Assembly: GCF_002097535.1 (NCBI RefSeq) | Contig: NZ_CP020772.1 | Coordinates: forward strand, 2,852,001-2,916,000 | Length of the DNA stretch: 64,000 nt | Direction: 5' to 3' | Source of the DNA: Halobacillus mangrovi | GTDB lineage: Bacteria > Bacillota > Bacilli > Bacillales > Halobacillaceae | Shown: in pieces, positions 8,151 to 9,113 of the stretch | Layout: every line of letters begins with the position of its first letter | How positions within the stretch are numbered: position 1 is the first letter of the stretch | Made by a program: the position numbers and the translations under genes | The notes under the pieces: model-generated | Seen by the model: only the letters and a program-made list of their open reading frames with translations | Databases searched by the model: none | What the model was told of the DNA's origin: nothing

Positions 8151-8168
8151 TTGTGAATTAATTCACAA
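8151..8168. promoter_or_regulatory. Rex- or Fnr/Crp-type operator
   Basis: TTGTGAATTAATTCACAA is a perfect 18-bp palindrome. It fits the Rex consensus TTGTGAA-N4-TTCACAA exactly and also the Crp/Fnr consensus TGTGA-N6-TCACA. Its centre lies about 61 bp before the start expected from the TATAAT at 8209, a spacing typical of class I activation by Crp/Fnr proteins. Which regulator binds is not decided by sequence. Confidence 0.65.
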
Positions 8169-8179
8169 ATATGCCACAA

Positions 8180-8214
8180 TTGATTCCGTTCACACCGCTT
8201 TTTCGTAGTATAAT
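8180..8214 (+). promoter_or_regulatory. Promoter of the large ncRNA
   Basis: A perfect -10 box TATAAT occupies 8209-8214. No good -35 lies at 16-18 bp. TTGATT at 8180 is 23 bp away and TTCACA at 8189 is 14 bp away. A strong -10 with a poor -35 suits an activated promoter. Start expected near 8221. Confidence 0.6.
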
Positions 8215-8220
8215 AAAAGT

Positions 8221-8675
8221 GTAAAGATGATACCAAACACATAAACAACTTAGGTGGCTCAACCATCGCGTGTTCGTTTCCAAACGAACGAAGACACCGG
8301 CTAGTAAAGGAAAAGAACCCTTGTGTAAGGGAGAGGGAAAGTCTTTGAATAGTCAGTGATCAAGGAGAAGGTCCACAATTATATGCAGATAAAGAGTGAC
8401 TTGCAAGACGATCACCCCTTGGGAAAGTCGAGTGCGGTTGAGTAGTCAAAGCAAGCGAGTCACTTTAGCAAATGCTTCATCTCTTCTTTAAAGAAAGAAG
8501 AAATGGAGGGAAATTGGACCTAATAGGAGAAGGAAACGAATACTCAAAGGAGTTGTCCTTCAAGAAAGTCTGAAATTCAAATGTGTTTAGAATCAAGGAT
8601 GATTCTTACATGGTTGGGTCACCTAAGTTGTTTACCTTAGCCCTGTCACTCAAGATAGTGACAGGGCTTTTTCTT
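8221..8675 (+). ncRNA. Large structured RNA of unrecognised family
   Basis: About 450 nt between a TATAAT promoter and a strong terminator, with no reading frame of 60 codons on either strand. Positions 8242-8266 pair with 8610-8634 over 25 bp. The only two deviations from perfect complementarity are G-U wobbles. The enclosed 343 nt contain further local helices: 8272-8289 (GTTCGTTT stem), 8318-8331 (CCCTT-GTGT-AAGGG), 8393-8404 with 8455-8466 (12 bp), 8483-8500 (CTTCTTT/AAAGAAG), 8547-8560 and 8589-8606 (AGAATCA-AGGA-TGATTCT). Purine-rich unpaired strings such as GAGAGGGAAAG and GGAGAAGG separate them. It is not tmRNA, RNase P, 6S or SRP RNA by any motif I know. OLE RNA is larger and normally sits beside its partner gene, which is absent. 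Confidence 0.7.
8641..8675 (+). terminator. Terminator of the large ncRNA
   Basis: CCCTGTCACT and AGTGACAGGG form a 10-bp stem with a 6-nt loop, followed by CTTTTTCTTTT. Confidence 0.92.
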
Positions 8676-9113
8676 TTGAGGTCCTAATTTTTAACAAAGG
8701 GCAACGAAAGGAAAATGCAGATTCACAACGTTAAGCAATTTAGATCATAGAAAAAATGGGATCCTTTACAACGTTTAGGAATGATAGTTTAATTTGTTTA
8801 TTAAGCTAAAGCCCCCGTTTGTTTAAGAATTGAATTCGAGATATCTAGGTAGTGTTCATCCTTATTTCCCTAAATGTATCTGTATGTACATACAAACTAC
8901 AATCTTGGCTATATGAAAGTTCTTTTTAATCATCACAGTTGGTTACATATCTTCCATTAGGCTAAACGAATGGAGAAACTATTAGATACAGTAAACATAT
9001 AATGAAACAATATGAACTATCCCGATTAATTAATTAAATGAACAGAGTATATGGAACCTGATTTTCTTTCAGGCGAATTTTTCACTTCCAGATTGGAATA
9101 AAGAGGTGTGAAA
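8676..9113. other. Intergenic region
   Basis: AT-rich stretch after the ncRNA terminator and before the broken DUF1259 gene. I see no gene, hairpin or repeat worth naming. Confidence 0.5.

Follow-up and report, generated by a model that had tools for sequence, protein, structure and literature searches.

The window analyzed here, a 64,000-nucleotide stretch of Halobacillus mangrovi DNA, carries at 8209-8678 on the + strand a stand-alone RNA gene which, on direct reading of the sequence, consists of a -10 box, a leader, a 25-bp terminal helix (P1) and a strong terminator. The gene almost certainly belongs to a family of large stand-alone non-coding RNAs of the class Bacilli that is absent from Rfam 15 and has a core of three helices, P1, P2 and P3. 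Related RNAs occur in many relatives of Bacillus and have no counterpart in the RNA catalogue searched, which points to a new kind of RNA in bacteria. The explanation that we prefer as a whole, namely a new trans-acting RNA family of Bacilli with a P1/P2/P3 core, a switch between P2 and a local hairpin (H1), and a scaffold or RNP role, is given a probability of roughly 0.45.

The RNA gene and its signals

The initial annotation of this stretch had proposed TATAAT at 8209, a strong terminator at 8641 and a 25-bp pairing of 8242-8266 with 8610-8634 that includes two G-U pairs. All three are seen on direct reading; the terminator is a stem at 8639-8668, in which the terminator scan finds 12 pairs, followed by a T tract (Table 1). 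Folded with its terminator, the 455-nt RNA reached -160.6 kcal/mol, compared with -109.05 (sd 6.18) for shuffled copies (z, -8.34; 0 of 100 equal or better), which upholds its description as a large structured RNA. At least six inner helices had also been proposed; P1, P2 and P3 and, less strongly, H1 are supported in distant relatives, whereas the rest appear only in single-sequence or within-group folds.

Table 1. Positions of the RNA gene's features in the window.
Feature	Position	Strand	Basis or remark
-10 box TATAAT, the RNA's own putative promoter	8209..8214	+	Sequence; aligned across 48 members
P1 5' arm, terminal helix	8242..8266	+	Sequence and covariation; inner GRCTCAACCAT nearly invariant family-wide
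P2 5' strand GTGTTCGTTTCC	8270..8281	+	Most of these bases can instead pair in H1, as its 5' side
H1 local hairpin, 8 bp, loop TCCA	8271..8290	+	P2 and H1 mutually exclusive
Variable domain, inside P2	8291..8531	+	Comparison of relatives
Possible local hairpin H3, GAAGGA...TCCTTC	8529..8561	+	Sequence and one alignment; alternative to the P2 and P3 strands
P2 3' strand GGAAACGAATAC	8532..8543	+	Pairing tests across members
P3 5' arm	8548..8559	+	Shuffle test
Possible local hairpin H4, GAATC-AAGGAT-GATTC	8590..8605	+	Sequence and one alignment; alternative to the P3 3' arm
P3 3' arm	8596..8607	+	Shuffle test
P1 3' arm, terminal helix	8610..8634	+	Sequence and covariation
Intrinsic terminator, 12-bp stem, loop 6, T tract	8639..8678	+	Stem 8639-8668; sequence and terminator scan

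The earlier suggestion of a separate transcript unit stands as regards the -10 box and the terminator. However, the window copy has no clear -35 and lacks the TG of an extended -10, and a promoter scan of the + strand returned no two-hexamer sigma-70 site at 8209. The flanks of 80 of the 81 family members collected were compared for the same signals. TGnTAnnnT was found upstream in 70 of the 80 (shuffled flanks, 8 of 80) and TATA[AC]T in 67; six members had neither of the tested -10 motifs. A terminator-like site lay 3' of P1 in 76 of the 80 members, compared with 28 of 80 shuffled flanks.

No long sense ORF was found among the 81 members. Per member, the longest measured 40 codons at the median and 101 at most, the values for shuffled copies being 39 and 92, and a coding role was rejected because these ORFs are no longer than in the shuffles; the annotation of a locus without a protein gene is thereby confirmed. 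An antisense ORF runs across the 5' part at 11 loci of Halobacillus, Thalassobacillus and Pontibacillus, which fits the slightly purine-rich strand (55.6%). Antisense ORFs had a median of 50 and a maximum of 115, with 46 and 87 in shuffles.

At family cut-offs, Rfam 15 gave no match anywhere in the window, and at permissive E-values six matches appeared, all well short of the family cut-off. The L10 leader gave the best sub-threshold match to the RNA (E 0.24); in the stretch of that alignment which was printed, what pairs is the terminator. At 8 loci of relatives, the RNA itself was likewise without an Rfam match at cut-off. The scan thus agrees with the earlier failure to recognize tmRNA, RNase P, 6S, SRP, OLE, ROOL or GOLLD, and a known family, which would have spoken against a new one, did not turn up. 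The RNA was not mentioned in the open-access literature searched, which was covered by titles and abstract openings, with subscription papers, most preprints and supplements outside the scope.

Relatives in Bacilli and the terminal helix

The genome of origin (4,142,697 bases, one contig) holds four copies: besides the window copy, two at 80% and 70% and a fourth recognizable at its ends only. A DNA match was obtained in 25 of 61 genomes, own included; in G054 the match lies elsewhere than its RNA. A pattern scan of named contigs returned 30 stretches, 24 of them from Halobacillus, Thalassobacillus and Pontibacillus (one, L050, is cut by the contig end). Six of the 30 (L043, L044 and L046-L049) lack the 3' half and were discarded as chance matches.

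Three models extended the search. R1, a covariance model of the RNA's 3' part, detected 26 carriers among the 44 genomes of the family and 20 among 397 genomes of the order. Of the latter 20, three were weak matches (E 0.002 to 0.009) and fell in other family groups; all three have both P1 arms, and a clear -10 box is present in L105 and L106 and missing from L104. R2, a sequence-only model of the 5' part (threshold E <= 0.05), flagged 82 of the 397 genomes of the order, with the P1 partner present downstream in 59, including G056 and G074, and absent in 23. The 59 carriers represent 16 family groups and 24 genera by the labels of the genome-search tool. In one set of 20 R2 loci that was fetched, the P1 partner was found in all, with 23 to 26 of 26 pairs. 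Given that the model covers the 5' side only, yet 59 of the 82 flagged genomes carry the P1 partner, the end helix is beyond chance.

R3, a promoter-plus-5' model, was searched in the class, which we take to be Bacilli from the taxonomy of Halobacillus, and in the phylum. In the class it flagged 26 of 398 genomes, seven with the P1 partner (G000, G126, G155, G440, G460, G500 and G054) and 19 without. The class search adds groups f58 and f64, for a total of 18 family groups; the genera number 28, that is, the 24 above, g155, g171 and g189, and g2, the Thalassobacillus group from the family search. Among 299 genomes of the phylum, R3 gave 4 weak matches in other classes, none with a P1 partner. 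The length of the RNA among relatives ranges from 158 to 1003 nt. The 158-nt form, L211 (G054:C19:314500-315200), consists of P1 and little else and is possibly a reduced, minimal or decayed member.

In addition to the 81 members collected, 12 came later (L196, L198, L199, L200, L202, L204, L205, L209, L211, L212, L217 and L219) and are omitted from the covariation counts. For alignments, near-duplicates were dropped by hand, so that 62 and then 48 of 76 were kept. P1, about 26 bp long across the family, was evaluated on 64 distinct arm pairs. In these, 94.2% of cells were paired, compared with 84.7% in shuffles. This share is inflated, since P1 pairing was itself part of the entry condition (at least 22 of 26 pairs plus the 5' motif), so that P1 statistics lean upwards, and the shuffles ignore kinship; the R2 matches, however, were obtained without the 3' arm. 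Double changes occurred at 15 of 26 pairs (8.1 in shuffles) and in 146 cells (48.5 in shuffles), and the covariation score was 0.286, against 0.124. On none of these measures did any of 500 shuffles score as high, and controls with slid arms gave at most 47.6% paired cells and at most 24 double-change cells. The outer half of P1 varies freely by compensation, whereas the inner GRCUCAACCAU/AUGGUUGRGUC is nearly invariant. Homologues with compensatory changes in the end helix, which the initial annotation had proposed to look for, do therefore exist, and its suggestion of a new RNA family is borne out by relatives across the class Bacilli, by the compensatory changes and by the lack of an Rfam match at cut-off.

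By eye, the P1 3' arm at 8612-8624, GGTTGGGTCACCT, resembles the 3' end of 16S rRNA, GGUUGGAUCACCU; the likeness fades in f64 members.

The junction and the competing hairpin

From the comparison of sequences, P1 is predicted to open into a three-way junction with P2 and P3, P2 enclosing a domain of variable size. The 5' strand of P2 directly follows the P1 5' arm, and its partner usually lies 34-90 nt ahead of the P1 3' arm. Members from Halobacillus, Thalassobacillus and Pontibacillus have a P2 of 10 to 13 bp and no mismatch; in most other carriers it reads GUGUU-C-GUUCC / GGAAC-x-AACAC, with a single mismatch at a fixed place. When all 81 members were tested against shuffles, P2 reached the 5% level (equal to or better than 95 of 100 shuffles) in 62. 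Its covariation was counted in the 71 members with at least 9 pairs. Across 30 unique arm pairs, 92.2% of cells were paired, against 85.5%, and 19 cells had double changes, against 8.0, with 0 of 500 shuffles as high on either count; the number of pairs with a double change, 4 against 2.7, was not above the shuffles (44 of 500 as high). P3 sits between P2 and the P1 3' arm and reached the 5% level in 66 of 80 members, one of the 81 being left out for too short a tail. Its arms are unrelated between clades, as exemplified by CATCGATTG/CAATCGATG and GTCTGCCA/TGGCAGAT. P2 or P3 is mostly weak in members of f58 and f64. Folds within nine groups gave P1 in all, P2 in some and H1 in others.

The domain enclosed by P2 differs several-fold in size between lineages. 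No interior 8-mer is shared by more than 9 of 38 representatives, and inner P1 is far better conserved.

H1, a hairpin of roughly 7 bp, keeps its pairing while its sequence changes from one family group to another (GUUCGUU/AACGAAC, UUCGUUC/GAACGAA, GUUGGUU/AACCAAC, UGGUUUC/GAAACCG and CCUAGUU/AACUAGG). Taken alone, it reached the 5% level in only 33 of 81 members, and in a few the best local helix had a loop of >40 bases. H1 and P2 were compared in 73 members, the other eight of the 81 being over 700 nt or having an unclear H1 or P2. They share at least 4 bases in 71 of the 73. The best folds with one or the other differed by a median of 0.3 kcal/mol and by no more than 5 kcal/mol in 65 members, with H1 the better in 29. 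Because H1 and P2 compete for one strand and their computed energies are nearly equal, the core may switch between them, and we consider it probable that the exchange is used in the cell. Shuffling of the interior left the median difference unchanged (0.6 versus 0.6; 17 members, 51 shuffles), which indicates that the balance is set by the arms and offers no evidence of tuning; near-isoenergy as the mark of a tuned interior was rejected on this control.

Neighboring genes, possible function and known RNAs

In 38 rows, the next downstream ORF (at least 110 aa, mechanical calling) ran with the RNA in 9 and against it in 25, and 4 had none; the rows come from Halobacillus and its closest relatives and hold 36 distinct copies, at least two (L021/L061 and L024/L060) being entered twice. 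The Pfam hits of 30 neighbor proteins include PPK2, Na/Ca exchanger, EAL, GGDEF, LuxS, SplA, MFS transporters, UvdE and Clp protease, with 6 of the 30 giving no hit, and no partner gene recurred across clades among the neighbors compared. Signaling neighbors (YkuI-type EAL, GGDEF-EAL, LuxS and MHYT) were seen at L051, L160, L133 and L132, too few for an association. If the RNA were a leader or attenuator acting in cis on the gene downstream, the layout seen here, competing helices followed by a terminator, would be typical. We nevertheless regard this as very improbable, given that the downstream ORF is opposite in 25 of the 34 rows having one, that the scanned neighbors are unrelated and that the H1 and P2 strands lie outside the terminator stem.

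At the Halobacillus PPK2 locus (L041, L064, L057, L059, L045 and L056), one to three copies of the RNA surround the PPK2 gene, which suggests local duplication. Such clustering, together with the multiple copies, the long inverted ends and the patchy occurrence in 26 of 44 genomes of the family, could also point to a MITE, a small mobile element with terminal inverted repeats that mimic an RNA helix. The initial annotation saw no target-site duplication, and this needs qualifying, as the flanks of the window copy do have a common 8-base word, ATTCACAA, at 8161 and 8721. In 79 of the 81 members, however, flanks sharing at least 8 bases made up 13 of 79 own pairs, against 22.9% of 6162 mismatched pairs, and the longest shared word had a mean of 6.66 (maximum, 12) in own pairs and 6.30 (9) in mismatched ones. 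Since such sharing is not commoner than in mismatched flanks, the word is no sign of target duplication. Many copies with target duplications had been named as the mark of a MITE; the RNA is multi-copy (4), but the copies have diverged and border repeats are not in excess. Moreover, the P1 arms covary and the -10 box and terminator are kept, in line with the earlier view that the end pairing is RNA structure rather than a transposon end. All 9 loci of g66 have the same SplA-type ORF close to the RNA, and searches of phages, of plasmids (with the window and two relatives) and of viruses (by exact patterns) gave no match. A mobile element is thus a very unlikely explanation.

The loop of H4, AAGGAU within CAAGGATG, raised the possibility of a CsrA sponge resembling CsrB or RsmZ, which are likewise long RNAs. 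In 36 copies, CARGGATG occurred 15 times against 0.6 expected, and ANGGA, in some excess, 176 times against 100. GGA itself, however, is hardly enriched (348 against 304 in the same copies), the loops of L042 and L031 have no GGA, and no CsrA gene was found in the host genome, G000, which has 4 copies of the RNA, whereas CsrA is found in 41 of 44 family genomes. A CsrA sponge, extremely unlikely in our estimate, was set aside on the grounds of GGA content and of the CsrA search, which largely refutes it for this genome provided that no diverged CsrA escaped the search. The three CsrA-negative genomes of the 44 (G000, G021 and G024) all carry the RNA, possibly by chance, carriers being 26 of 44.

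With the mobile element, the leader and the CsrA sponge disfavored, a trans-acting RNA is left, in the form of a scaffold or RNP core, an antisense regulator or an RNA-only assembly. We favor a scaffold or RNP core over the other two because it is P1 and the junction, rather than words of the interior, that are conserved, and hold this structural or RNP scaffold role tentatively. The RNA would be transcribed from its own promoter and act in trans. H1 would form first in the course of transcription, and the distal P2 strand together with P1 would then displace it, reversibly or not, giving a two-state core. The nearly invariant inner P1 and the junction may form the working surface, which would most likely bind a protein or a second copy of the RNA, while the variable domain would act as a lineage-specific scaffold.

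A trans-acting antisense regulator, for which the staphylococcal regulator RNAIII is the comparison case, would pair with target mRNAs through its variable domain or loops, the ends merely stabilizing it. The RNA's own -10 box and terminator, the several diverged copies per genome and the fast-evolving interior would suit such a regulator, as would the excess of TTTCC (41 against 18.1) and TCCTT (40 against 16.1) in 36 copies, words that could meet ribosome-binding sites. We consider it somewhat unlikely, since inner P1 is conserved far beyond the interior words (8-mers in at most 9 of 38) and the interior has no significant match elsewhere in the genome, where the best non-family match (E 0.02) falls in the terminator.

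Alternatively, the RNA could be an RNA-only machine of identical subunits like OLE, ROOL and GOLLD, in which two copies swap P2 strands, H1 being the free form and P2 the assembled form. A single strand with two conserved partners, and the large size and structured ends shared with these RNAs, are consistent with it; displacement within one molecule accounts for the same data, and we judge the RNA-only machine improbable. A wider proposal, to which we give about as little credence, is that of class-wide two-state RNA machines, whose nearly isoenergetic P2 partners would allow a strand-swapped RNA-only or RNA-protein assembly around a cargo domain of about 100-850 nt.

To our knowledge, few classes of large structured bacterial RNAs are known. 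Some of these act as the core of an RNP or assemble from RNA alone. The new family, with its marked covariation and its spread over many genera of Bacilli, provides a genetic system in which to ask what large RNAs do, and its wide size range on a fixed core and its competing core pairing make concrete predictions for probing and cryo-EM.

Among the known systems, the Bacillaceae-1 RNA (RF01690) is also an RNA of Bacillaceae, and one copy (L102:1423-1489, - strand) is placed some 320 bases upstream of a Pontibacillus-group relative, the 1003-nt member; it is a separate 67-position element outside the RNA described. The ends of retron msr-msd RNA pair with each other, as do those of the window RNA; unlike for a retron, no reverse transcriptase domain was found in the 30 neighbor proteins (Pfam, E 1e-5; 6 without any hit). 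ROOL and GOLLD are likewise large ornate RNAs of unknown function, but they are located in phages, prophages or tRNA islands, whereas here there is no tRNA in the window and no match in the phage and viral searches, nor does the window RNA match an Rfam model at cut-off. OLE has a linked OLE-associated protein gene, whereas the window RNA, which has no Rfam match at cut-off, shows no recurring neighbor gene among the neighbors compared, and its family extends over 158-1003 nt around a three-way junction. OLE is presented as a large structured RNA of Gram-positive, often extremophilic bacteria with a role only partly known, and OLE, ROOL and GOLLD are described as assembling without protein (PMC12286853). 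Like OLE, the window RNA is large, structured and from a Gram-positive bacterium.
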